DNA of 64,000 nt from Rheinheimera sp. 4Y26 (GTDB lineage Bacteria > Pseudomonadota > Gammaproteobacteria > Enterobacterales > Alteromonadaceae). Made by a program: the position numbers and the translations under genes. The notes below the pieces were generated by a model. That model saw nothing but the letters and a program-made list of their open reading frames with translations. It searched no databases and was not told where the DNA came from. The stretch's first letter is position 1. Each line of letters starts with the position of its first letter. Positions 49,005-61,791 of the stretch are shown here, one piece after another. The stretch is taken from positions 682,001 through 746,000 of the forward strand of contig NZ_JAOBWS010000001.1 in NCBI RefSeq assembly GCF_025245835.1. The letters run 5' to 3'.

Positions 49005-50072
49005 ATGGCAGCTCAGCCGGCATCCAGTTTGCAGTTTGAGCAGTTATTGCCGGCCTTTTGTCAGGGCCGTATTGTCATCCGCGTGTTGGTGCTGGCTCAG
49101 GCATTAGCAATTTTGCTGGCACTGGCGCCTACATTGGATCACGACTTCTGGGCCCGGCTGGGCCTGATGTCGCTGTTTGTGCACTGGGTTGCGTTGTTAA
49201 CAGTGGCGCTGTTGTGTCAGTTTAAAAAACCTTTATTGCATCTGAAACCGCGTCAGCTCAGCAGTGTGGCGCTGCTGCTGCTGCTGTTGATCACCTGGCT
49301 GGTCAGTACTGCCGCTTTTGGCTTACTGAGTCATCATGGCTGGCAAAGCCGCGCCGACTATTTTGCCTTTTTATTACAAACCATGCTGATCGCGCTATTG
49401 GTCGGTGGCATGGGTATTCAGTTATTTGCCCTTTATATTGAACACAGTTGGCGGTTGCAGGCACAGTCGCGCTCTGAGCTGGATGCACTGCAGGCCAGAA
49501 TTCAACCACATTTTTTATTTAACAGCTTAAATACAGTGGCCGAGCTGACACAGCAGGATCCAGCTGCGGCTGAAACCGCTTTGCTGGATTTAGCCAGTTT
49601 ATTCCGGGCAGCTCTGAATGCCGGCGCTGTGGCCGAACTTACCGAAGAGCTGACGCTTGCTAAAAGATATCTGGCGCTGGAGCAGTGGCGCCTGGGGGAC
49701 AGGCTCAAGTTACAATGGCAAGTGCCGGACGAGTTACCCAAAGCACAACTTCCTTGTCTGACATTACAACCTTTGCTGGAAAACGCCGTGCATCATGGCG
49801 TGGAGCCTTGCCCGCAAGGGGGGCTCATCCGTGTTGAGCTGCAGCTTTCTGCCACTTCTATCACCATCATGATCAGCAATCCTATTCCCAATGCTCCTGC
49901 GCAGGGCGGCAATGGCATGGCGCTTGAAAATATCAGGCGACGGCTGGAGCTGCAGTTTGGTGATGCCGCCAGACTCAGCACCCACAGCCGTGCGCAAAGC
50001 GGCGATGAACCGGCTGAGTTCAGGGTCAAGCTGGTGATCCCGCTGGCTGGGCGTAGCGGGAGCCTGCGATGA
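49005..50072 (+). CDS. AlgZ/FimS-like sensor histidine kinase
   Basis: 355 residues. Four hydrophobic helices in the first 150 residues (ALAILLALA, VHWVALLTVALLCQF, VALLLLLLITWLVSTAAFG, LQTMLIALLVGGMGIQLFAL), then the His_kinase domain of the LytS/AlgZ class with the phospho-acceptor His169 in IQPHFLFNSLN and a C-terminal ATPase domain (PLLENAVHHGVEP, GNGMALENIRRRLEL). Start 49005 follows ispH; an upstream in-frame start lies inside ispH. It overlaps the response regulator by 4 bp. In Pseudomonas this pair controls type IV pilus and fimU operon genes. Confidence 0.9.
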   Translation: MAAQPASSLQFEQLLPAFCQGRIVIRVLVLAQALAILLALAPTLDHDFWARLGLMSLFVHWVALLTVALLCQFKKPLLHLKPRQLSSVALLLLLLITWLVSTAAFGLLSHHGWQSRADYFAFLLQTMLIALLVGGMGIQLFALYIEHSWRLQAQSRSELDALQARIQPHFLFNSLNTVAELTQQDPAAAETALLDLASLFRAALNAGAVAELTEELTLAKRYLALEQWRLGDRLKLQWQVPDELPKAQLPCLTLQPLLENAVHHGVEPCPQGGLIRVELQLSATSITIMISNPIPNAPAQGGNGMALENIRRRLELQFGDAARLSTHSRAQSGDEPAEFRVKLVIPLAGRSGSLR

Positions 50073-50779
50073 ACATTTTGCTGGTGGATGATGAACCTCT
50101 GGCCCGCGCCAGATTAAAACGTTTGCTGCAGGCATTTGCCGGACATCAGGTGGTGGGCGAGGCCAGTGACGGTGACACTGCACTGGCGCTGGCCGGCAGT
50201 TTGCAACCTGATCTGGTGTTTCTGGATATTCAAATGCCGGGCCGTGATGGTTTAAGTGTGGCGGGCGAATTGTTACATCTGCCACTGCCGCCTGCAGTGG
50301 TGTTTTTAACCGCCCACCCGCAACATGCGCTGGAAGCCTATCAGGTGGCGCCGGCCGGTTATCTGCTTAAACCCGTCAGTCCTGAACAACTGGCGGCTAC
50401 ATTGCAACGGATAGGCCTGACCACCAAAGCTCATCTGCAAAAACAGCAGGCGCAGCAATGGCTCAGTTATAAAAGTGGCAACAGCTTGCAGCGGGTTGAA
50501 CTGCAACAGATGTTTTATCTGCAGGCCGAAGACAAGTATGTGCGTTTTGTGTTTGCCGGCGGTGAGGCCTTGAGCGATCTCAGCCTGAAACAACTGGAAG
50601 AACAGTTTCCGCAGGATTTAATCCGTATTCACCGCAATACCCTGGTGCTCAAACGCCGCATCAAGGCACTGCATCTGCAGGAAGGTAGACATTTGCTGGA
50701 ACTCTGGCAGTGTGCTCAGCGCCTTGAAGTGAGCCGGCGCGAGCTGCCGAAAATCCGCCAGTTGCTCGGTGCTGGCTAA
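50069..50779 (+). CDS. AlgR-like LytTR response regulator
   Basis: 236 residues: receiver domain with acidic pocket (VDDEPLARARLKRLL) and phospho-Asp53 in FLDIQMPGRDG, and a LytTR DNA-binding domain from about residue 135 (SLQRVELQQMFYLQAEDKYV, LIRIHRNTLVLKRRI). This architecture binds direct repeats at target promoters. Coupled to the sensor kinase by an ATGA overlap. The minor-pilin operon begins 205 bp downstream, a strong contextual hint to its target. Confidence 0.9.
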   Translation: MNILLVDDEPLARARLKRLLQAFAGHQVVGEASDGDTALALAGSLQPDLVFLDIQMPGRDGLSVAGELLHLPLPPAVVFLTAHPQHALEAYQVAPAGYLLKPVSPEQLAATLQRIGLTTKAHLQKQQAQQWLSYKSGNSLQRVELQQMFYLQAEDKYVRFVFAGGEALSDLSLKQLEEQFPQDLIRIHRNTLVLKRRIKALHLQEGRHLLELWQCAQRLEVSRRELPKIRQLLGAG

Positions 50780-50983: not shown

Positions 50984-51556
50984 ATGCCGGTACAAAAATA
51001 TCATTCTCAGTTTGGTGTCACCCTGATTGAATTACTGGTGGCAATGACCATTCTGGCCATCAGTCTCAGCATTATGCTGCCATCATTTGGCTCTTTAATC
51101 GGGAACAATAAACTCCTGGGTCAGGCTGACGAAATCCGTACTGCGCTGGTATATGCCCGTAGTGAAGCTATCCGGCTGAATGAAGCTGTGGTGTTTTGCC
51201 ACTCCAATAACAATATGACCTGCACAGTGCCAGGAGCCAATGGCTGGGAAGGCTGGATAGTGCAAACCGCAGCTGTTGCGCTGGCTGCTCCGGCTGTACC
51301 TGCCTTGCGCGCCGGCTTTTTCCCATCAGCACCGATGAAAGTGACGTCAGATGCCAATCTGACCGCTGCCGGTCATATTGTCCGTTTTACCCCTCAGGGT
51401 CTGGCCAGAATGCCGGCCAATAACACGCCGTTATCGGCGCAAATCCGTTTTTGTATTGCACAGGCTCAAACCAAGCCAAATATCCGTGACCTGCAGTTCG
51501 ATTCCGGTGGTCGCATTGTGCTTCGTTCATCCGATGCTTCGGGTGTATGCGCTTAA
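50984..51556 (+). CDS. fimT: minor pseudopilin FimT/FimU (GspH family), cluster A
   Basis: 190 residues with a class III prepilin leader: G11/V12, then VTLIELLVAMTILAISLSIM with Glu at +5. The GspH/FimT-like C-terminal domain includes ARSEAIRLNEAVVFCHSN and a disulfide-suited Cys pair. Processed by PilD and incorporated at the pilus tip complex. First gene of the minor-pilin operon; pilV follows after 29 bp. Confidence 0.9.
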   Translation: MPVQKYHSQFGVTLIELLVAMTILAISLSIMLPSFGSLIGNNKLLGQADEIRTALVYARSEAIRLNEAVVFCHSNNNMTCTVPGANGWEGWIVQTAAVALAAPAVPALRAGFFPSAPMKVTSDANLTAAGHIVRFTPQGLARMPANNTPLSAQIRFCIAQAQTKPNIRDLQFDSGGRIVLRSSDASGVCA

Positions 51557-51585
51557 GCGCAACATGAATAATGGAGGAACAGTTG

Positions 51586-52068
51586 ATGAAATTCGCTTCC
51601 CGCCGGCCGAAAATGGGCCATCAACCCGGGCTGAAACAGCAACGAGGTGTGTCCTTGCTGGAAGTGCTGATTGCGGTACTGGTGCTGTCGCTTGGTTTAT
51701 TGGGTGTGGCCGGTTTACAAACCGCCAATATCCGGAACACCCAAAGTGCTCATCAGCGCACTATGGCTGTGCTGCTGGCCAGCAGTATGGCTGAACGTAT
51801 CCGCGCGAACGCCGCAGCTGCAGTTAATGGCAGTTTTGTGTTGCCGCTGCGTTGCAGCGCTATGTCGCCCGGTGCGTCTATACAGAGTGTGGAGCAAGCC
51901 AGTTGGCTGACAGAAATCATGACCGCATTTGGCAACTCAGGCACCAGCTGTGGCGGCGTGACTTATAACGCCGCCACCCGAACTTATATTGTGACTGTGC
52001 AGTGGGACGACTCCAGAGCCTTGGGCGGCAGTACCACTATGACTATTACTCACGTGGCAAGGATTTAA
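51586..52068 (+). CDS. pilV: minor pilin PilV, cluster A
   Basis: 160 residues. The ATG at 51586 has GGAGG 8 bp upstream; the ATG at 51571 contains that site in its own frame and is unlikely. Prepilin cleavage after G21 (KQQRG / VSLLEVLIAVLVLSLGLLGV) with Glu+5. Typical PilV features: AGLQTANIRNTQSAHQRTMA and the Cys-bearing C-terminal region. Overlaps the region just before pilW. Confidence 0.9.
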   Translation: MKFASRRPKMGHQPGLKQQRGVSLLEVLIAVLVLSLGLLGVAGLQTANIRNTQSAHQRTMAVLLASSMAERIRANAAAAVNGSFVLPLRCSAMSPGASIQSVEQASWLTEIMTAFGNSGTSCGGVTYNAATRTYIVTVQWDDSRALGGSTTMTITHVARI

Positions 52069-52070
52069 TG

Positions 52071-53036
52071 ATGAGGTTGTGCAGTAAAAAAGCAGCGCGG
52101 GGGTTTTCACTGACCGAACTGATGGTGGCCTTGCTACTGGGCTCTTTTTTAGTGGCTGGTGTCATTGGTGTGTATCTGTCGAATGTTAGTACCAACAGGG
52201 TGAATCAGCAGATCAGTGAGTTACAGCAAGCCAGTCAGGTAAGTTTTCAGCTGCTGAGTCAGGATGTACAGCATGCCGGTTACGCCGGTTGTGGCAATGT
52301 GATGGCGGCTCATGTGTTTAATGCGCTGAATCCGCCGTTGGCCTGGTGGAATAGCTGGACCGGCGGTATACAGGGTTTTGACTCTGGTGGTTTTCCGGAT
52401 TTCAGTAATGGTGCTGTGGTGCCGCTGCCCAATACGGACGCACTGCAGGTGATGTATGGCCGTGGTGTCAGTGCTTCAGTCGTTGCGCATAATGCTGCCG
52501 GCAACCCGGCTATGGTCATTAATCAGAATCTGGCTGGCATAGTGGCCAACGATATTGTGATGTCTTGTGATTCGAAATGGGGACTGATTTTTCAGGTGAC
52601 CGCGGTCAACGGCACAGACCTGACCCACGCTGTTGGCGCAGGTGCGCCCGGTAACCGAACCCTGCAATTTGGTGTAGCCCCCAATGGAGTAGCTTATCAG
52701 CGCAATATCAGTAGTGACGCCGGCTTTGTCATGCCAATGGAGTCATCTGCCTGGTTTGTGGGGACCCGCAACAACCTCAACTCGTTATACCGGGTGGTGG
52801 TGGTGGCAGGCCAGGTCAGGGTGGAAGAAATTGTACCCAATGTTACCAATCTGCAGTTGCAGTATTTGCAAAGAGGCACTGCCAACTATGTGGATGCCCC
52901 TGCGGTGGCGGACTGGGAAACAGTGGTGTCAGTGCGTGCTGTGTTAACGCTGGCTGATAACCCAAGTGCTCCTGTGGCCCTTGCGCTAAGGGAAATCAGT
53001 CAGGTGGTAAATTTACGCAACAGAAGGGAGCTGTAA
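52071..53036 (+). CDS. pilW: minor pilin PilW, cluster A
   Basis: 321 residues. Prepilin leader MRLCSKKAARG / FSLTELMVALLLGSFLVAGV with Glu+5, then the PilW body (QISELQQASQVSFQLLSQDV, QHAGYAGCGN). The ATG at 52071 has AGGA 7 bp upstream; the adjacent in-frame ATG at 52068 overlaps the pilV stop and cannot be excluded. Followed by pilX after 1 bp. Part of the minor-pilin complex that primes pilus assembly and carries PilY1. Confidence 0.88.
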   Translation: MRLCSKKAARGFSLTELMVALLLGSFLVAGVIGVYLSNVSTNRVNQQISELQQASQVSFQLLSQDVQHAGYAGCGNVMAAHVFNALNPPLAWWNSWTGGIQGFDSGGFPDFSNGAVVPLPNTDALQVMYGRGVSASVVAHNAAGNPAMVINQNLAGIVANDIVMSCDSKWGLIFQVTAVNGTDLTHAVGAGAPGNRTLQFGVAPNGVAYQRNISSDAGFVMPMESSAWFVGTRNNLNSLYRVVVVAGQVRVEEIVPNVTNLQLQYLQRGTANYVDAPAVADWETVVSVRAVLTLADNPSAPVALALREISQVVNLRNRREL

Positions 53037-53037
53037 G

Positions 53038-53538
53038 ATGAAATATCCGATATCTCAGAACCGTGGTATGGCGCTGGTGGTGAGCCTGTTATTGCTGGTG
53101 GCTATGACCTTGCTGGCGGTGAGCGCCATGCGAAGCACTACCTTACAGGAAAAAATGGCCGCTAATTTTAATGACAGGGAAATTGCCAAACAGGTGGCTG
53201 AGGCCACAGTGCGGCAGGTTGGGACTAATTTATTGCCGCCGGCACCCGGCGCTGGCTGGTACAGAGCTGCGCTGCCAGCACCTGTCGCGGGAGCGCCGGA
53301 TTTATGGCAAGACCCTTTGGCCTGGGCCAACCGGGGTCAGGTTGCTGTGGCGGTGAATGGCACCAATTACACCGGCGAATTTATGGTGGAGAACCTCGGC
53401 ATGTGGCCGGATCCACAAAATCCAACCTGTAAAGTGACCGATCCTCTGTGTGAAAAACAAACCTACAGAGTGACGGCAAGAACGGCGCCTCAGGCAGGGC
53501 GGGCCAGTGTAACCATTCAGGCTATCTGGCGGATTTAA
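53038..53538 (+). CDS. pilX: minor pilin PilX, cluster A
   Basis: 166 residues. Leader ends QNRG, mature chain starts MALVVSLLLLVAMTLLAV without Glu at +5, as usual for PilX/GspK-type tip pilins. STTLQEKMAANFNDREIAKQ is the conserved PilX helix and the C-terminus carries Cys residues. The PilX name follows operon position and this helix. pilY1 starts 22 bp later. Confidence 0.88.
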   Translation: MKYPISQNRGMALVVSLLLLVAMTLLAVSAMRSTTLQEKMAANFNDREIAKQVAEATVRQVGTNLLPPAPGAGWYRAALPAPVAGAPDLWQDPLAWANRGQVAVAVNGTNYTGEFMVENLGMWPDPQNPTCKVTDPLCEKQTYRVTARTAPQAGRASVTIQAIWRI

Positions 53539-53560
53539 GCAGTATGATGGCGGGAGAACC

Positions 53561-56500
53561 ATGATGTCATTTGCAACAAAACCTTTTGCTATTCACGGTA
53601 GCTGGCTGCTGGTTAGTGCTCTGTTTGCGGCCAGCACAGTACAAGCGGCCATCAATATTGCACAGGCGCCGCTGGAAACCGGCACGGCTGTTGACCCGAA
53701 TATTTTATTTGTGCTGGATGATTCAGGTTCAATGCGCTGGGGTTTTATGCCGGACGAATTATCCGACAACTTTAACCTTGGCAGCGGTTGTGATGATGAG
53801 GTGACTTTTGCCGGCGTGAAGGTCAAACGTTGTAATGCTGAAGGTCGTAAGTATCTGGCTTCCAGCCATTTGAATACTGTTTATTTTGACCCGACCGAAA
53901 ACTATCCGGTACCGCTGAAACCGGATGGCGTGAGTTATTACCCAACCCCTTCTTTTACCAATGCACCCCATAATGGCTATGATTCGTCGTCATCCAAAGT
54001 GGATTTAAGCAGCCAATACCGGGCTTTAATTGCTGATTATTACTGGCCCGGATTTTCTATCACGTCCAGCACCAGTAGTTATAGTGCCGGGCCGGCGTTT
54101 TATTTTAAATACCGCACGGGATGTACTTCCAATCCACGCAGTGACGCTTGTTATGACCTGGTCAAAGTAACGGATTTGTCAGCAGCAGAAAAACAAAAGT
54201 TTGCTAATTGGTTTTCGTTTTACCGTACCAGGCTGATGCTTGCCAAAGCTGGTGTTTCTGCAGCTTTTCATAGTCAGTTGCAGTCGATGCGGGTGGGTTA
54301 TGGGGCTATTAACAGTGGGGTGATCAGGGCGGACGTAGCCCCCTTTGGTGGCGGCAACCGTACCGGCTTTTTCAGTTGGTTACATGATAAAGAAGCTACG
54401 GGTGGGACACCTTTGCTGACGGCTTTGGACACTGCAGGTAAGTATTATCAAAGTGATAAACCCTGGCTGACGGTGCCCTCTGATCCGGATTCCGCCATGC
54501 TGGAATGCCGGCAGAGCTTTACCATTCTGATGACAGACGGTTATTACGATGGTTCGGTCAGTGCAGGCGGTAACCAGGATGGTAGCGACGGCAGCACTAT
54601 CACAGGGCCAAATAACCCGGATTACACCTATAAAGCCAGCGATCCGTTTCGTGACGGTGAGAGCAATACCCTGGCTGATGTGGCGATGAAATACTGGAAA
54701 ACCGATTTACGCCCGGATCTTGCCAATACAGTGCCTGTGCCTTTGCCCAATTTAAACCCGGCGTTCTGGCAGCATATGGTCACTTTTGGTGTTGGCTTAG
54801 GGGTGACAGGTTCGGTCACAGCACAGCAGGGTTTTGATGCTGTAACCAGCAAAAGTGCCGTCAATTGGTGGGGCGGCTCTGAAAAGCAAAACAAAATTAA
54901 CGATTTATTGCACGCCAGTGTCAATGGTCGTGGTGGTTTTTTCAGTGCCAACAAACCCAGTACTTTTGCTTCTGGCCTGGCCAATACCTTAGCCAATATT
55001 TCCGCCCGCGCTGGTTCAGCGTCGAATATTGCCGCCACCGCTATTAACTCATTACAAACTGAGTCCAATGTGTATCAGGCGCGTTTTATTGCCGGTGAAT
55101 GGGCTGGCGATTTATGGTCATACAAAGTGGATGATGTCAGTACTCCGGTATGGAAAGCCAGTGAACAACTACCGGCACCTGCTGCACGCAATATCTGGTT
55201 TGGCAGCAGCGGCAGTACCGGCAATGCCAAGGCTTTTGTCTGGAGCGAAATGAACGCTGCCGAGCAAAAAGCTTTTAATAACGATGCGGCCGTGGTGGAT
55301 TACATCCGTGGCGATCGCAGTAAAGAAAAGAAAAACGGTGGCCTGTATCGTGACAGAACCAGTCTGCTCGGTGATTTGGTGAACTCATCGCCGGAGCTGG
55401 TTTCTGCCCCTGTGGATATGAGTTATCACAGATATAGCTGGTCTGGTGCCAGCTCTTATCGCAGCTTTTTGGAAAGCAACGTCAAAAACCGCCCTGCGGT
55501 GATTTACGTCGGTGGCAACGACGGCATGCTGCACGGTTTTAATGCCGACACAGGCCGGGAGTTGCTGGCCTTTATTCCGGCTGCTGTGATGGCGCCAATT
55601 GGTGGTCAAACGGTAAATGTGCTGAAAAAATATTCAGAGCAAAATTATCAGCATATGTTTTCTGTAGATGGTTCGCCGACAGTGGTGGACGTGTTTGACG
55701 GCAATAACTGGAAAAGTGTGCTGCTTGGCAGTCAGGGCCGCGGTGGTAATGCTTTGTTTGCGCTGGATGTCACCAATCCTGAACGTTTTGGTGGCAATAA
55801 CGTGCTGTGGGATAAAAGTTTTGCCGAGCTTGGGGTGTACCTGGGGGAACCTCAGGTGTTCCGCCTGAACAGTGGGCACTGGGCCTTAGTGGCTGGTTAT
55901 GGTTACAACAACAGCAGTGATCAGTCTGGTATTTTGCTGATTGATGTGCTGACCGGCAACATCATTAAAAAATTGCCTACCGGCAAAGGCAGTGCCAGCG
56001 ACTCGAACGGTATGTCTGAAATCAGTACTCTGGATATTAATAACGACGGCAATATCGACTGGGTGTATGGCGGCGACTTGCACGGCCATATCTGGAAGTT
56101 TGATTTGTCTGCAGCCAGTGAATCAGGCTGGGCTATTGCCAACAATGGTCAGCCTTTGTTTTCAGCAGTGAATGCACAAAATAAAAGGCAATCTGTGACC
56201 GGTGGTGTACTGGCGAATATTGACCCTAAAACCGGCAAAGCCTGGGTGTTTTTTGGTACCGGCCGTTATTTAAATCAGGACGACCCAGCCAATGCCGAAC
56301 AACAAACCATGTACGGCATTATTGATGGTCCAACCGTCAGCTCCAGAGCTGAACTGGATGCGCGCACTATTACCACTGTGGGTGATAAGCGGGTTGTCAG
56401 TTATGCAGCTCAGCTGAGCGCAGGTAAAAAAGGCTGGTACATGGATTTAGTCGACACCCATGAGCGTATTGTGGATATGCCTTCCATGCTGGGCGGCGAT

Positions 56501-56842
56501 CTGGTGCTGAACACCACCATTCCGGATACCAATGTCTGTAATCCAAGTGGTTCCGGTTACATTATGGCGGTATCGGCTTACAGCGGTAGCCGGCTGAAAA
56601 AGATCTTCTTTGACAGCTCAGGCGACAAAAACTTCGACAATAGCGACAAAGTACAGATTTCCGGCAAAGCCACCGATGTCAGTGGGATTCGGGTTGGTAG
56701 CTTGAACAGCGTGGTAACTTTTGCCAAAAATGGCAGCAATGTACTGGCGCTTGCCAACTGTGACGGCGTCAATATGTGTGGTACAGCTGTGAATGCTTCA
56801 GTGGCAAGACAGATGTTGTCCTGGCATGAAATCAGTAATTAG
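53561..56842 (+). CDS. pilY1: type IV pilus tip adhesin PilY1 with VWA and beta-propeller domains
   Basis: 1093 residues. Signal peptide to about residue 29 (FAASTVQA). The N-terminal von Willebrand A-like domain has a complete MIDAS motif, D53-x-S55-x-S57 in LDDSGSM, and a second segment FTILMTDGYYDG. The C-terminal half is the PilY1 beta-propeller (NRPAVIYVGGNDGMLHGFNA, SVLLGSQGRGGNALFALDV) with a calcium loop at D825-N827-D829-N831-D833. Acts with minor pilins at the pilus tip in adhesion, twitching and surface sensing. ATG at 53561 or 53564. Confidence 0.93.
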   Translation: MMSFATKPFAIHGSWLLVSALFAASTVQAAINIAQAPLETGTAVDPNILFVLDDSGSMRWGFMPDELSDNFNLGSGCDDEVTFAGVKVKRCNAEGRKYLASSHLNTVYFDPTENYPVPLKPDGVSYYPTPSFTNAPHNGYDSSSSKVDLSSQYRALIADYYWPGFSITSSTSSYSAGPAFYFKYRTGCTSNPRSDACYDLVKVTDLSAAEKQKFANWFSFYRTRLMLAKAGVSAAFHSQLQSMRVGYGAINSGVIRADVAPFGGGNRTGFFSWLHDKEATGGTPLLTALDTAGKYYQSDKPWLTVPSDPDSAMLECRQSFTILMTDGYYDGSVSAGGNQDGSDGSTITGPNNPDYTYKASDPFRDGESNTLADVAMKYWKTDLRPDLANTVPVPLPNLNPAFWQHMVTFGVGLGVTGSVTAQQGFDAVTSKSAVNWWGGSEKQNKINDLLHASVNGRGGFFSANKPSTFASGLANTLANISARAGSASNIAATAINSLQTESNVYQARFIAGEWAGDLWSYKVDDVSTPVWKASEQLPAPAARNIWFGSSGSTGNAKAFVWSEMNAAEQKAFNNDAAVVDYIRGDRSKEKKNGGLYRDRTSLLGDLVNSSPELVSAPVDMSYHRYSWSGASSYRSFLESNVKNRPAVIYVGGNDGMLHGFNADTGRELLAFIPAAVMAPIGGQTVNVLKKYSEQNYQHMFSVDGSPTVVDVFDGNNWKSVLLGSQGRGGNALFALDVTNPERFGGNNVLWDKSFAELGVYLGEPQVFRLNSGHWALVAGYGYNNSSDQSGILLIDVLTGNIIKKLPTGKGSASDSNGMSEISTLDINNDGNIDWVYGGDLHGHIWKFDLSAASESGWAIANNGQPLFSAVNAQNKRQSVTGGVLANIDPKTGKAWVFFGTGRYLNQDDPANAEQQTMYGIIDGPTVSSRAELDARTITTVGDKRVVSYAAQLSAGKKGWYMDLVDTHERIVDMPSMLGGDLVLNTTIPDTNVCNPSGSGYIMAVSAYSGSRLKKIFFDSSGDKNFDNSDKVQISGKATDVSGIRVGSLNSVVTFAKNGSNVLALANCDGVNMCGTAVNASVARQMLSWHEISN

Positions 56843-56856
56843 ATCAAGGAGTAATA

Positions 56857-57279
56857 ATGCATAAGCCGCGTGGGTTCAGTTTAATGGAAATGATGGTGGT
56901 GGTGGCAATTATTGGTATTGTCGCCGCTGTAGCAATGCCGGCCTACAGCAAATATGTGTTGGAAACCCGCAGGGCATCCGCGACGGCCTGCATGAATGAA
57001 CTGGCACAGTTTATGGAGCGGGTTTATACCGGTTCGATGGACTACAGCCAGTCCAATGGGGTGGCGACAATCTTGCCAGAAACCAGTTGTCGTATTGATT
57101 TGGCAGACTTTTATACTTTCAGCCTCAATGCTGCGCCCCAGACTTTTCTGCTGACCGCAGCGCCAAAGGGGCCGCAGCTCAAAGATACCAGTTGCGCCAC
57201 TTTAACTTTAAATCAGGCTGGCATTCGTACAGCTGCCGGTGCCAATACCGCAGCCATAGTACGCAAATGCTGGGGATAA
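56857..57279 (+). CDS. pilE: minor pilin PilE, cluster A
   Basis: 140 residues. Short leader MHKPRG / FSLMEMMVVVAIIGIVAAVA with Glu+5; PilE-type globular domain (TRRASATACMNELAQFMERVYT) and C-terminal Cys pair (DTSCATLTL, VRKCWG). Called minor pilin PilE by position after pilY1; it resembles the pilA family and could be a minor component. The following 77 bp are AT-rich and may hold a promoter for cluster B. Confidence 0.88.
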   Translation: MHKPRGFSLMEMMVVVAIIGIVAAVAMPAYSKYVLETRRASATACMNELAQFMERVYTGSMDYSQSNGVATILPETSCRIDLADFYTFSLNAAPQTFLLTAAPKGPQLKDTSCATLTLNQAGIRTAAGANTAAIVRKCWG

Positions 57280-57356
57280 AAATGCGCTGAAGTTTGATTT
57301 TTTGTTTTTAAGATGTAAATTTAAGGTAATCAAATCGGTGTAAGGATGCATCGCTT

Positions 57357-57836
57357 ATGAAAGGATTCACCTTATTTGAGTTGTTGATCTGTTGTCTGCT
57401 ATTCAGCCTTGGCATGCTTGGCGCTTTGAGTTGCCAGATTTATGCAAGACAGCAGGTGTTACAGGCGCAGCAGCGGCTTATGGCAGCTGCTGTGGCCGCC
57501 GATGTCATGTCCTCTTTGCAATCTGTGTCGGTCAGCGCACGGGGTTTTCAGGCCGATATACAGCAAAAACCGGCGACAGGTAGCTGCGATCAGCCCGGCC
57601 TTTGTAATGGCCAGCTGCTGTTGCAGGCGCAACTGGCCGCCAGTCTCAGTGGCGTGTTTCAGCCCTCAGCCATCTTACCTCAGGCACAACTTTGTATCCG
57701 TAGCAGTGCCGCAGGCCCGGCCATCAGCCTGAGCTGGCAACCGGTGCAAAAATCGTCTTTTCAAAGCAAGTCCAGCCTGTGCCCGCTCAAAACCGGTCAT
57801 TTTCAGCTGGAACTGGTGCCAGGCAGGGGGCTTTGA
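57357..57836 (+). CDS. PilV-like minor pilin, cluster B
   Basis: 159 residues. Very short leader MKG / FTLFELLICCLLFSLGMLGA with Glu+5, then a PilV-like helix (CQIYARQQVLQAQQRLMAAAV) and Cys pairs (GSCDQPGLCNG). Similar to cluster A PilV only in the leader and helix. First gene of the second minor-pilin set; the next gene starts 2 bp after its stop. No recognised adhesin domain. Confidence 0.75.
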   Translation: MKGFTLFELLICCLLFSLGMLGALSCQIYARQQVLQAQQRLMAAAVAADVMSSLQSVSVSARGFQADIQQKPATGSCDQPGLCNGQLLLQAQLAASLSGVFQPSAILPQAQLCIRSSAAGPAISLSWQPVQKSSFQSKSSLCPLKTGHFQLELVPGRGL

Positions 57837-57837
57837 G

Positions 57838-58776
57838 ATGAATTTCTGTCACGAGCGTGGCTGGACTCTCGTTGAAATGCTGATTGCGATGGCGCTCAGT
57901 TTATTACTGACCCTGTTGCTGGTGAACAGCTGGCAAGTGAATCAGCAAGCCTTCAAACAAACCAGTCAGCTGGCGGAAATGCAGCAGTCGGGTCAGTTTG
58001 TGCTTGGTTTTTTTCAGCAGGAACTGTTAAACCAGAATTTTTGGGCCGGTGCTGATCCGGGGTTATTGCGCCCTGTTGCGGGTCTTAGTGTGCAGGGGGA
58101 TTGCCGTAGTCTGTTCGATAGCGGCAGCTTTCCAAAAAACGCCACGGCCTTTGTGCCCATGCTGTCGGGGATTGTTGGCGCAGTCTATACCCCGGATTGC
58201 TTGAGCTCCGCCCACAAAGGCTCGGCTTTTTTACAGCTTAAACGGCTGGCAGGAGCACCCTTGACTGCCGCCACCGCTAAAAACAACAGAGTTTATCTGC
58301 AGCAACAAGGGCGCTCATATCGTTTTGTCAGTCAAGCTTCAGGTGCTGCAACTGCTACTTATTGGCCTTATTTACATCAGGTTTTTTATGTGGCACTGCA
58401 AACCCAGGGTCGGCAGCAGGTGCCGGTACTGATGCGCAAACGTCTGGTGCGTCAGGCCAGCGGCCAGCTGACGATGGATACAGACTCTGTGTTGGATGGC
58501 GTGGAGATGATGCATTTTGACGCTGGCATCGACAGTAATTTTGATGGTCAGGTTGATTATCTGCAAGACGTGGCGCAAGTCTCGGCCGATGTCTGGCAAC
58601 AACGCAGCGGTCAGGTATTACAACTGCGTTTTTATGTGCTGGTTCGCAGTGTGATGCCAGACAACACCTATACCAATGTGCAGCAGTACACCTTGGGACA
58701 ACGGCTGTTCCAGGCACCCGGCGACCATTACCGCCGTTTGTTGGTGTCCAGCGCAGTCACCTTTCATAACCATTAA
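57838..58776 (+). CDS. PilW-like minor pilin, cluster B
   Basis: 312 residues. Leader MNFCHERG / WTLVEMLIAMALSLLLTLLL: Glu+5 is kept but the +1 residue is Trp instead of Phe. PilW-type continuation QAFKQTSQLAEMQQSGQFVL and a calcium-like stretch DAGIDSNFDGQVDYLQDV near residues 223-240. Ends in the PilW-like helical tail. 18 bp before the next gene. Confidence 0.78.
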   Translation: MNFCHERGWTLVEMLIAMALSLLLTLLLVNSWQVNQQAFKQTSQLAEMQQSGQFVLGFFQQELLNQNFWAGADPGLLRPVAGLSVQGDCRSLFDSGSFPKNATAFVPMLSGIVGAVYTPDCLSSAHKGSAFLQLKRLAGAPLTAATAKNNRVYLQQQGRSYRFVSQASGAATATYWPYLHQVFYVALQTQGRQQVPVLMRKRLVRQASGQLTMDTDSVLDGVEMMHFDAGIDSNFDGQVDYLQDVAQVSADVWQQRSGQVLQLRFYVLVRSVMPDNTYTNVQQYTLGQRLFQAPGDHYRRLLVSSAVTFHNH

Positions 58777-58793
58777 CTGAAGGAGCAATCAAG

Positions 58794-59165
58794 ATGCAGG
58801 CCAAAGGATTTGTGCTTGTTGTCTGTTTGTGTTTTATCGTGATGGTCAGTGCCATGGCGTTCAGCGCTCTGACCATCAGCCAACTCAGCCAACGGATAGG
58901 TATGGCAGGGCAGCTGCAAACGCAGCGTTACCTGAGCATGAAATTAAAACATCTGCAGCAGTTGCAACAACTGTCAACTAAACCTCAAGCCGGTGCTGAT
59001 AGCATCAGCTGCCCGGCACAACTGGCGGTTTGGAGTGAGCCTCAGCTACAGTGCCAACTGTTACAGTTACAAAGTGTGGCCAGTGATCCCGATGACGCCG
59101 AGCCCTGGGGCACTTTGTTATGGCGCCCGGATTTCACTGCTGTTGTGGCTGGAGGTGTGTCATGA
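58794..59165 (+). CDS. PilX-like short minor pilin, cluster B
   Basis: 123 residues. Leader MQAKG / FVLVVCLCFIVMVSAMAFSA without Glu+5, matching the PilX/GspK pattern; then a helix QLSQRIGMAGQLQTQRYLSM and a short Cys-containing globular part. Shorter than cluster A PilX (166). It overlaps the following gene by 4 bp. Family assignment rests on operon position and the +5 feature. Confidence 0.68.
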   Translation: MQAKGFVLVVCLCFIVMVSAMAFSALTISQLSQRIGMAGQLQTQRYLSMKLKHLQQLQQLSTKPQAGADSISCPAQLAVWSEPQLQCQLLQLQSVASDPDDAEPWGTLLWRPDFTAVVAGGVS

Positions 59166-60727
59166 AGAGCCTGTTTTTGCTGATAAAGTTCAGTCTCTCT
59201 GTTTTGGTGCTGGGTGTTCCACTGCAGCTGATGGCGGCTAAAACGGCGACCGGGAATGCTACAGCTGCGACTGGATCCGGAGTGCCTGCTGTGACAACAA
59301 CAGAGCGCTATTATCAGTTGCAACCTGATTTAACGTACCGGCCGCTGAGCCAACCCTTTGCAACCAACCAGAGTTTTTGTCCCAAGCCGCGCCCTGACAC
59401 AGTACCACTGCGTTATCACGACAGCAGCGGTAAACCGCTTTGGTTGCAACTAAGCAATGAAAGTGGTCAGTTACGCTGGTTTGGTGACACAGATAGTGGT
59501 GTTTTAGTCTCTAATGCACCCCCGGCAGCTTTGCCTGAACCGGCCGTCGCTTCGCCTTTGCTGCTGACGGCAGCTGTTCCGGCTGGGGTCAACACAGGTG
59601 TTGCTGCTTCGCCTGAAGTTATTTGGCATGATTTGGCTGCTAATCAATATCAGCGGGCAGATTTAACCGATCTGCAGGCACCACGCTTAAGATGGCGCTG
59701 GTCAGTGCCTTTGGCACAGCAAATCCCCTGGTTACAAACGCCGGTGCTGCAGCGCTGGCAAAACCAGCAAGAAGTATTGCTGATCAATTCGGCCACAGCT
59801 GCCACACCACGACTTTGGTTGTTGCAGGCTGACAGCGGCAAAATGTTGGCGGAATTTGACCTGCAGCATTACGCCAGTGGGCAGCAACCTGTAGCTACGC
59901 TTGGGGCATTAAAAGCAGCACCAGCAGCGCTGGATTTGGACGGGGATGGTGCTTTCGACCGTGTTTATCAGATTGATGAACAAGGACAATTGTTGCGGCT
60001 TGATGTCAGCCCTGATTTGAGTTACCAGAGCGCGCTGGTCGCTGACTTGTCGGGGAAGAATGCTGTTTATGTCAGTCCCTTGTTGGCGGTAAGGGCTATA
60101 TTGCCGGGTAACCTGGCCACAGTGGCCAGCCGTCAGGCGGTTGATGTGTTGGTACTGCTGGCTAAAAGTCAGAGTCAATATCAGCTGCTAGTGTTATTTT
60201 TAGCGGATGACATCAGTTCCCCTTTATTAGTCAGTGATTTACAGCAAGCAGGATTTGCAGCACAGACACAAACACAGATACAGGTACAAGCAGCGCCTGC
60301 GGCTTCGCCAAGCCAGTTCATGCAACTGAAGCGGAGCGCGGGCTGGTTGTTGCCGTTATCTGGTCAGCCGGTTTGGCAACCCCAGCTGATAGCGGGTGTG
60401 TTGTACCTGCCGCTGCAAAGTGCCGCACAAAACAGCTTGTTATGTGCAGATGCGAGGCAGGCTGACTCGTTACTGGCGCTTCATTTGTATCAGGCCACAG
60501 CTGTTTACAGTGAGGCAGAGCTTGATATCAATATGCAATTGCCACTTCGGCTGACTGCTGCTGCGGATGGTAGTCTGCAGTTACAGCAAAGTAAGGATGG
60601 GGTTTTAATACTGGAGGGGTTGCATGGAGTCAGCGAGAGCTGTGCTGGCTGCACTGAAAAGCTGAATGTGGCGCAGTTATCACAATGGCGGCAGCTGGCG
60701 ATTTACCGTCAGGAAGAGGTGTACTAA
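59162..60727 (+). CDS. reduced PilY1-like protein lacking the VWA domain, cluster B
   Basis: 521 residues; signal peptide to about residue 22 (VLGVPLQLMAA). The middle resembles the PilY1 propeller: RLWLLQADSGKMLAEFDL and the calcium loop ALDLDGDGAFDRVYQIDEQG (Asp258, Asp260, Asp262, Asp266), equivalent to the loop at D825 in PilY1. No MIDAS motif and no VWA-like domain. About 45% the size of PilY1 and Gln/Leu/Ala-rich. Its position between pilX-like and pilE-like genes is that of pilY1, so I infer a second, minimal PilY. It overlaps the next ATG by 1 bp. Confidence 0.68.
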   Translation: MKSLFLLIKFSLSVLVLGVPLQLMAAKTATGNATAATGSGVPAVTTTERYYQLQPDLTYRPLSQPFATNQSFCPKPRPDTVPLRYHDSSGKPLWLQLSNESGQLRWFGDTDSGVLVSNAPPAALPEPAVASPLLLTAAVPAGVNTGVAASPEVIWHDLAANQYQRADLTDLQAPRLRWRWSVPLAQQIPWLQTPVLQRWQNQQEVLLINSATAATPRLWLLQADSGKMLAEFDLQHYASGQQPVATLGALKAAPAALDLDGDGAFDRVYQIDEQGQLLRLDVSPDLSYQSALVADLSGKNAVYVSPLLAVRAILPGNLATVASRQAVDVLVLLAKSQSQYQLLVLFLADDISSPLLVSDLQQAGFAAQTQTQIQVQAAPAASPSQFMQLKRSAGWLLPLSGQPVWQPQLIAGVLYLPLQSAAQNSLLCADARQADSLLALHLYQATAVYSEAELDINMQLPLRLTAAADGSLQLQQSKDGVLILEGLHGVSESCAGCTEKLNVAQLSQWRQLAIYRQEEVY

Positions 60728-61140
60728 TGGCCGCTGTGAAACCCGTTAGCCAGGGTTTTGTGCTAATTGAAATCATGGTGGTGGTGGCGCTGATTGGCAT
60801 TATTTTATCAGTGGCTTTGCCCGGTTATCAGCAGCATGTACTTGGCAGTTACCGGCGTGAAGCCTGTGCTGAGCTGCTCAAAGTGGCCAATATGCAGCAA
60901 TTATTATTGGCTGAGCAATACAGGTACAGCGCCGATCTCACCGAGTTTGGTTTTGCCCACAGCAGTTATCTGACCGAATCAGGGCGTTTTCGCATCTCGG
61001 CAGTGTTAACCAGTCAGGGTTATCAGCTCAATGCCATGGCTACCGGGGCTCAGCAAAAAGACAGCGATTGCCAGTTATTCCAGCTGGATCAGTATGGGGT
61101 GAAAAGTAGTCAGCCCGCTAGCGACTGCTGGTTGCCATAA
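60727..61140 (+). CDS. PilE-like minor pilin, cluster B
   Basis: 137 residues. Leader ending VSQG / FVLIEIMVVVALIGIILSVA with Glu+5, PilE-like globular domain (REACAELLKVANMQQLLLAEQYRY) and Cys pair (DSDCQLFQL, SDCWLP), parallel to cluster A PilE. Start at 60727 overlaps the preceding stop. Last gene of cluster B; a terminator follows. Confidence 0.85.
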   Translation: MAAVKPVSQGFVLIEIMVVVALIGIILSVALPGYQQHVLGSYRREACAELLKVANMQQLLLAEQYRYSADLTEFGFAHSSYLTESGRFRISAVLTSQGYQLNAMATGAQQKDSDCQLFQLDQYGVKSSQPASDCWLP

Positions 61141-61175
61141 CGCTATCAGTTTTTGAATTGCCCTTTGCTGCATTA

Positions 61176-61214
61176 AAAAATCCTCTGCGCTTAGGCGAAG
61201 CACGGAGGATTTTT
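61176..61214. terminator. terminator between cluster B and convergent fimT
   Basis: Outer stem AAAAATCCTC / GAGGATTTTT with a GC-rich inner arm; T run on the plus strand, A run on the left, so it can serve both convergent operons. Confidence 0.8.
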
Positions 61215-61242
61215 GTTATTTGCACGGGCAACAATGCGGAGG

Positions 61243-61791
61243 TTATTGCGGGCAGGGCGTGTCAACATAGTGCAGCTGGCTGCGACCAGCCTGGCTGATG
61301 CTTAGCTTGTAATGCCAGTGATATTGTTTAGCACAATAAATAAAGGTGCCGTTTTGCAGCACATTTAAACTGCCATCCCGGCGAAACTGCAGTTGCTCCC
61401 TGTTGTAATACAACCAATGTGAATTGATAGGTTTGTCCAGTTGTTGCAACATGGCCAGGGCACCTGAGCCCGGTGTCTGGCGCAGGATCTGAATAGGCAC
61501 CTGCCACCACTGATTGACACATTGATTGCCCTTAAGCGGGCAGAAAGTCACAGTACTGCCCGAACTAATGGCCTCGACTCTGGCATATTGCAGTTGTTGT
61601 TTTAATTGCCGTACATAACTTTCGGCCTGTTGCCTGGCCACCAGCTCCTGTAGCGATGGTAATCCCAGCATCAATAACAACAGCATCAGATTCAGTACTA
61701 TCATCAGTTCGAGCAGACTAAAACCTTGTTGTTGCAGTTGTTGGCACTGGCCTGAGGTGCGCTTTTTTATGGCAATAAAGGCGGGCATCAC
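61243..61791 (-). CDS. second FimT/GspH-like pseudopilin
   Basis: 182 residues, minus strand, convergent with cluster B. Leader ends QQQG / FSLLELMIVLNLMLLLLMLG with Glu+5; GspH-type body with ARQQAESYVRQLKQQLQYA, ARVEAISSGSTVTFCPL and a C-terminal Cys. Cluster B contains no fimT of its own, so this gene could complete that set although it is transcribed separately. Start is ATG at 61791 or the next codon. Confidence 0.82.
   Translation of the reverse strand: MMPAFIAIKKRTSGQCQQLQQQGFSLLELMIVLNLMLLLLMLGLPSLQELVARQQAESYVRQLKQQLQYARVEAISSGSTVTFCPLKGNQCVNQWWQVPIQILRQTPGSGALAMLQQLDKPINSHWLYYNREQLQFRRDGSLNVLQNGTFIYCAKQYHWHYKLSISQAGRSQLHYVDTPCPQ

Follow-up and report, generated by a model that had tools for sequence, protein, structure and literature searches.

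The 64,000-nt window analysed here, from the genus Rheinheimera, contains two tandem sets of minor-pilin and PilY genes, clusters A and B, and raises the question of which of them is the resident of the locus and what a second set beside it might do. The genes follow in the order ispH, a LytS/LytTR pair, cluster A, a gap of 77 bp, cluster B, a convergent fimT and, beyond it, two genes that we take from their sequence to be nadE and glnB. An initial reading made from the sequence by itself (the sequence-only reading) regarded A as the core operon and B as an extra set, possibly carrying a different adhesin. We moderately favor another arrangement, in which cluster B and the convergent fimT would be the lineage's resident type IVa minor-pilin operon with a trimmed PilY1, and cluster A would be a second tip set, occupying a slot with replaceable contents that lies between ispH and B and encoding a full PilY1 of a kind seldom seen elsewhere in the family; both sets would use one machine.

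A constant cluster B beside a variable slot

Comparison of the locus among relatives reveals that B is the constant set, whereas the place taken by A is in some genomes empty or filled by a different set. First, PilY-B is present in all 22 Rheinheimera genomes, and the five-gene B set in 21 of them, the contig of the 22nd beginning at pilY. Second, B is found at all 11 loci of the sister genus g18, and its five genes at five of six loci of a second sister genus, g43, the sixth contig opening inside pilW. Third, the gene order of B is kept in 20 Rheinheimera loci and, in the sister genera, in 16 of 17, the remaining contig being truncated within pilW; such recurrence across whole-set loci excludes chance.

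The slot is filled in several ways. A PilY1 matching PF05567 is found in 19 of the 22 Rheinheimera genomes; in G003 and G020 the slot has a pilE-fimT-pilV-pilW-pilX set without PilY1 (the C set), G010 carries A as well as C, and G009 has neither, its ispH lying 627 bp 5′ of pilV_B on the same unbroken contig. Among the g18 loci nine have A, G253 has C and G182 has a family-type operon with a PilY1 of 1155 amino acids (aa), and A is present at four of the six g43 loci, the other two contigs being too short for a call. Exchange of A is evident from two comparisons. The A proteins of G200 and G144 share 45–53% identity, against 60–80% for the B proteins and FimT and 95% for IspH; and between G004 and G007 the synonymous divergence (dS) of pilY1-A is 1.6, that of the remaining A genes 0.13–0.40.

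Three side observations concern the slot. The C set (L037:6443-9440, L040, L044 and L078) lies in place of A or beside it, and its PilX is large, with a frame of about 390–430 aa. An extra convergent fimT lies between the slot operon and B in two stretches (L082:8233-10497 and L081:8094-8594), the first of which also has an extra pilV_B-like gene, and these copies are perhaps relics of former slot contents. In G019, a one-contig genome (L035:8834-12288), pilY1-A is interrupted beside a run of G and B is open; the run is absent from that place in most relatives compared, intact pilY1 copies are found in relatives, and the interruption may reflect either phase variation or an error in sequencing.

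The origin of the two sets can be approached through the rest of the family. In 11 stretches from other genera of the family (L095–L097 and L131–L138) there is a single operon 3′ of ispH with the order pilV-W-X-PilY1-pilE, followed by convergent fimT-type genes in six; four of the stretches end too early, and L131 has other pilin-like genes at that place. Profiles of B outscore those of A on the single-operon proteins in 9 of 11 stretches for PilV and likewise for PilE, and in 10 of 11 for PilW, where one comparison is nearly tied. The PilV, PilW and PilE of B, its gene order and its place thus agree with those of the single operon in most of the other family members compared, which, together with its constancy, reverses the roles of core and extra set that the sequence-only reading had assigned.

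Trees point in the same direction; they are quick trees without bootstrap and with long-branch warnings, their rows were admitted by score thresholds, and C-set proteins were excluded from the A and B profiles. For PilW, the 37 B rows form one clade (support of 100 in the Shimodaira-Hasegawa-like approximate likelihood-ratio test, SH-aLRT), which groups with nine of the 11 single-operon rows and the slot row of G182 (99), and the 29 A rows stand apart (86). For PilE and PilV there is likewise one B clade (96 and 97; 37 B rows in PilV) and one A clade (98 and 96).

The distribution of PilY1 types is restricted. An A-type PilY1 scoring at least 697 bits is found in 22 of 246 family genomes, namely nine of the 11 sampled from g1, nine from g18 and four from g43; the next scores in the family are 421 (G143) and 190 (G208), and the others listed are at most 58 bits. 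PilY-B, at 91 bits or more, is found in 28 of the 246, all in the same three genera. Kin of the A-type PilY1 occur in 201 of 369 genomes of the class, two of them within the family, and score at most 594 bits outside the genus. Cluster A would accordingly have joined the locus later, B being the resident operon. Closely spaced pairs of PilY1 matches are also seen in L140 (G208), G422:C84, G453:C6 and G330:C21.

The short PilY of cluster B

The PilY of cluster B is half-length, and its relationship to PilY1 is apparent from profile comparison. With a profile built from 16 genus members, residues 149–454 align with residues 746–1120 of a 1187-aa family PilY1 (98.7% probability, E 4e-16); the match to the A-type PilY1 is weaker (95.7%, E 9.6e-9), and that to the Pseudomonas aeruginosa PilY1 of PDB 3hx6 has an E of 9e-6 and spans the loop DNNSDGVAD. 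The PF05567 model of the C-terminal PilY1 propeller finds no match in PilY-B, and BLASTP against PilY1-A gives an E of only 0.001 over 29 residues. Because the profile alignment is confined to the C-terminal part of PilY1, PilY-B appears to be a PilY1 that has lost its N-terminal half and retained part of the propeller, behind an N-terminus that looks signal-like by eye. The idea that B brings a different full adhesin is therefore not supported.

The missing half is probably VWA-like. A D-x-S-G-S motif is present within the first ~70 residues in 12 of 12 family PilY1 proteins and in 27 of 31 A-type rows (L081 and L096 excluded; three of the four rows without it are cut frames), DDSGS in PilY1-A itself, and is found at the N-terminal place in none of 39 PilY-B rows. 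No VWA match is found in residues 1–150 of PilY-B, which is in any case not long enough to include this half, with the qualification that the Pfam VWA signal is weak even in PilY1-A, where VWA_2 scores 18.7 bits for a cut-off of 27, and that two family PilY1 proteins have no such signal.

What remains has features of its own. A calcium-type loop, DLDGDGAFD at residues 258–266, aligns in sequence with the calcium-binding loop of 3hx6; it is kept in Rheinheimera and g18 with some positions changed, and is deleted in all six g43 members. A CxxC tail (494–497) is present in all 39 PilY-B rows and is found in none of the 12 family PilY1 proteins and in none of the 31 A-type rows within the last 60 residues; the C-terminus (window 60641-60727) consists of this CxxC and a short conserved end. 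Frame lengths, some of which include upstream extensions, are 445–587 aa in 22 Rheinheimera members, 352–413 aa in 11 of g18 and 276–297 aa in six of g43.

Such shortening, the rapid change of PilY-B (21–91% identity to that of the window among 15 genus members) and the loss of the calcium-type loop in g43 would be expected if B were a decaying former operon kept by chance alone. This is nonetheless very improbable. The ratio of nonsynonymous to synonymous substitution (dN/dS) in 13 pairs is 0.09–0.23 for PilY-B and 0–0.18 for the remaining B genes, with PilX_B reaching 0.31 and fimT 0.41 where the pair is very close (saturation of silent sites leaves some values undefined); A genes give values of a similar order. 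Values below 1 for each B gene indicate purifying selection, so that decay, which the sequence-only reading had named as a possible refutation, does not apply. Moreover, the B frames are open wherever a contig spans the set, and PilW-B is 44–82% identical to that of the window in seven diverse genus members. The assignment of the window to Rheinheimera agrees with two named loci of that genus, whose PilW_B is 96% and 83% identical to its own.

Short PilY frames also occur elsewhere. Among 13 stretches from 12 genomes, chosen from a search of the class, six of the frames end at a contig edge (L143, L145 and L150–L153), L147 resembles a longer PilY1 whose frame has been broken, and L146 is a weak match of 21 bits. 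The other five (L144, L148, L149, L154 and L155) are frames of 505–623 aa, of which L148 (505 aa) and L149 (525 aa) are flanked by minor-pilin genes and begin, as judged by eye, with a signal-like segment; a shortened PilY is thus not unique to B. L149:3944-7121 (G576), from another family of the class, has a complete-looking PilY in the order pilV-pilW-pilX-PilY.

Composition and putative transcription signals of the two clusters

The features of the locus are listed in Table 1; every gene of the two clusters is an open frame at the positions first reported. Cluster A has the complete type IVa minor-pilin and PilY1 order, as the sequence-only reading had proposed, and its FimU, PilV, PilX and PilE pass the cut-offs of specific Pfam or NCBIfam models, PilW_A passing a leader model only. 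PilY1-A is the sole PF05567 match in the genome, and the profile of its group matches 3hx6 with E 4e-115. The second set is likewise where it had been placed, in the same order; the description of two complete tip sets holds as regards two divergent tandem sets, B being complete only if the convergent fimT, which sits at the same place in relatives, is counted with it.

Table 1. Coordinates of the minor-pilin clusters and associated features in the window.
Feature	Position	Strand	Basis
LytS-type sensor kinase	49005..50072	+	PF06580; between ispH and cluster A
Response regulator, LytTR DNA-binding domain	50069..50779	+	PF00072, PF04397
Cluster A	50984-57279	+	fimU-pilV-pilW-pilX-pilY1-pilE, standard order
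fimU/fimT of cluster A	50984..51556	+	GspH 48 bits, N_methyl
pilV of cluster A	51586..52068	+	TIGR02523 73.6 bits, cut-off 52.2
pilW of cluster A	52068..53036	+	N_methyl passes; PF16074 21.9 bits, below cut-off 26
pilX of cluster A	53038..53538	+	PilX_N 57 bits
pilY1 of cluster A, full length, 1093 aa	53561..56842	+	PF05567 169-171 bits
pilE of cluster A	56857..57279	+	ComP_DUS 69 bits
Cluster B	57357-61140	+	pilV-W-X-Y-E order
pilV-like of cluster B	57357..57836	+	N_methyl passes; TIGR02523 in part, 35 bits against a cut-off of 52
pilW of cluster B	57838..58776	+	PF16074 60 bits, cut-off 26
pilX-like of cluster B, 123 aa	58794..59165	+	Place and leader (by eye); no family over cut-off
pilY-like of cluster B, 521 aa	59162..60727	+	PilY1 C-terminal profile homology
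pilE of cluster B	60727..61140	+	ComP_DUS 55 bits, cut-off 27 (scanned one codon upstream)
Strong hairpin between convergent pilE_B and fimT	61176..61214	.	-23.8 kcal/mol, z -4.6
Convergent fimT-like, accompanies B set	61243..61788	-	GspH 55 bits, cut-off 21

Profile searches on B gave a mixed result (some Pfam scans were run on frames one codon early, for PilW_A and PilE_B, or on a shortened kinase frame). PilW, PilE and FimT pass PF16074, ComP_DUS and GspH, respectively; PilV_B passes no specific family model, and PilX_B and PilY_B reach the cut-off of no Pfam or NCBIfam model and are assigned by place, leader or profile homology. The N_methyl leader model is passed by FimU, PilV, PilW and PilE of A and by PilV_B, PilX_A being recognized through PilX_N, and is narrowly missed (cut-off 21.2 bits) by PilW_B (20.6), PilE_B (20.6) and the convergent FimT (18.6); TIGR02532 is passed by PilV_B, PilE_B and FimT, with PilW_B at 16.1 against 16.3. 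The leader of PilX_B matches no model and is seen by eye alone, PilX_B matches PilX_A by BLASTP with an E of 0.008, and the gene recurs in the B loci of relatives. That B belongs instead to type II secretion or to mannose-sensitive haemagglutinin (MSHA) pili, the other refutation that had been foreseen, is barely credible: weak, mostly leader-only matches to GspG/H/I/J could suggest it, but all B proteins fall below the cut-offs of the Gsp equivalog models of type II secretion (MSHA was not separately tested), the PilW and PilE families do pass, and the pilV-W-X-Y-E order and the place by ispH are those of the minor-pilin operon of relatives.

The two sets are divergent, as had been noted, with identities between A and B of 24–53% over the first 45 aligned residues and 20–27% beyond. 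This low identity past residue 45, together with the trees, rules out B as a recent duplicate of A.

A scan for promoters called 9 sites against 9.9 in shuffled sequence, no excess, and a scan for terminators 21 against 15.0. The pattern-based terminator scan called no terminator-like site in the 77-bp gap and did not call the strong hairpin that separates pilE_B from fimT and may terminate transcription in both directions. At loci lacking A, B would need a different promoter.

The tandem place, the lack of a called terminator in the gap, its shortness (39–284 bp in 31 loci, one measured to an extra pilV copy) and the single PilP per genome are compatible with a mixed tip, that is, one complex drawn from both sets with PilY-B structural and PilY1-A the adhesin. 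We regard this as improbable, however, in that B is retained both at loci without A and at those where a set lacking PilY1 stands in A's place, and each set has its own copy of every subunit.

A probable single pilus with two tip sets

The number of machines was judged from PilP, present as one copy in all 22 genus genomes, and from the PF00114 pilin, with one match in 20 of the 22, two in one and none in one. With one PilP and one PF00114 pilin, A and B probably serve one type IVa pilus, and these counts, which cover PilP and PF00114 pilins, make it unlikely that B has a type IVa machine of its own. In relatives, minor pilins and PilY1 are described as forming the complex from which the pilus is initiated, with a proposed location at the pilus tip (PMC7541494). 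Under the arrangement proposed here, both sets would act on one machine and one major pilin, competing or being used in turn. The B proteins would make up an initiation complex that is always present and is topped by the short, adhesin-poor PilY; reduced to a small part of the propeller behind a signal-like start after shedding the VWA-like adhesin half, this PilY could cap PilX without conferring adhesion. The A proteins would form an alternative complex that places the full PilY1 at the tip, possibly together with a surface-sensing role for the neighbouring LytS/LytTR pair.

Several points weigh against this reading. First, the A profile outscores that of B on the single-operon PilX in all 11 stretches, and on the whole PilY1 in 8 of 11; the shortness of the PilY-B profile and a much-changed PilX-B may explain these scores, but they lower our confidence slightly. 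Second, two of the 11 stretches (L096 and L131) fit A at least equally on nearly all genes. Third, no donor of A was found among the genomes compared, and the A-type may instead have been lost in the rest of the family. Fourth, B stands alone in a single genome, G009, where PilP and a pilin gene were found but no PilY1 matching PF05567. Fifth, a structure prediction for PilY-B from three sequences had a mean predicted local distance difference test (pLDDT) score of 30.5 and was not used. Finally, a Myxococcus PilY1 without its VWA bound minor pilins and PilO and gave no pili (PMC7541494), so that PilY-B may not prime pili by itself.

The Vibrio cholerae competence pilus lends support to B working without a full PilY1. 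There, fimT-pilW-pilX-pilV are described as a core of four minor pilins that initiates the pilus, and PilY1 is unnamed in the portion of that account available (PMC13249403). The C set of G003, G020, G010 and G253 is like this operon in lacking PilY1, a likeness of gene content alone; cluster B, in contrast, retains a PilY remnant.

Several tip sets per genome are already known in Myxococcus and Xylella. In Myxococcus xanthus, as here, several tip sets (clusters 1–3) are combined with one major pilin and one machine, the PilY1 N-termini differ, and one PilY1 type is suggested to be horizontally acquired (PMC7541494, PMC13190605). Each of the three Myxococcus clusters, however, encodes a PilY1 with a conserved C-terminus and a differing N-terminus, whereas here the PilY1 of the constant set is cut to part of its C-terminal half and stands beside a changing slot. 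In Xylella fastidiosa there are two sets of minor pilins (pilEVWX/fimT) with PilY1, often with opposite roles in motility and competence; unlike here, the sets are mostly in two genome regions, and the three PilY1 proteins are described as tip adhesins (PMC9956873). No account of PilY1 or minor pilins in Rheinheimera was found in the library of open-licence papers searched.

The Xylella paralogue sets, which had mostly opposite motility and competence phenotypes, invite the idea of a division of labor, with A for adhesion and twitching and B, with FimT, for DNA uptake, under different conditions. DNA-binding FimT orthologues bear a C-terminal GRxR motif (PMC8897410), and this motif is present in 29 of 38 B-set FimT proteins versus 11 of 29 A-set FimU proteins (L095 and L097 excluded from the FimT count, L096 from the FimU count), so a DNA-uptake role for the FimT of B is a lead suggested by motif content. 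We nonetheless think such a division unlikely, though less so than the mixed tip. The convergent FimT of the window lacks GRxR and, like eight relatives, carries GRSQ; the FimT rows of two single operons (L095 and L097) are also without GRxR; and ComP_DUS is matched by the PilE of both sets and so does not separate them.

A broader form of the arrangement, which we put forward tentatively and as somewhat less than an even prospect, is that the tip is modular throughout Rheinheimera and its two sister genera, with a constant adhesin-free B set plus a swap slot. If so, the slot would take a full PilY1 set, a set without PilY1, a family-type set or none, according to lineage, and the surface specificity of one pilus machine would be exchanged as a cassette. 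It may be that the second tip set in gene order is the older one, and that tip sets are exchangeable as units. The requirement for PilY1 in starting the pilus is hard to separate from its role in adhesion, since loss of the VWA blocks pili in Myxococcus. A PilY without its N-terminal half next to a full-length PilY1, together with G009, would make the question testable in environmental bacteria, the A/B pair being a natural test of pilus-tip requirements.

The operon of Pseudomonas aeruginosa has the order fimU-pilVWX-pilY1-pilE and is present as one set. Cluster A has the same order, and its likeness to that species may extend to the genes directly 5′ of it: the LytS/LytTR pair (49005-50779) is reminiscent of Pseudomonas FimS/AlgR (PMC5979040), by layout and not by orthology comparison. 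The kinase frame is open from 48936, and the ATG at 49005 is its likely start. The pair was not found beside the slot in G001, G002, G003 and G009, and adjoins it in part of Rheinheimera as well as in g18 and g43.

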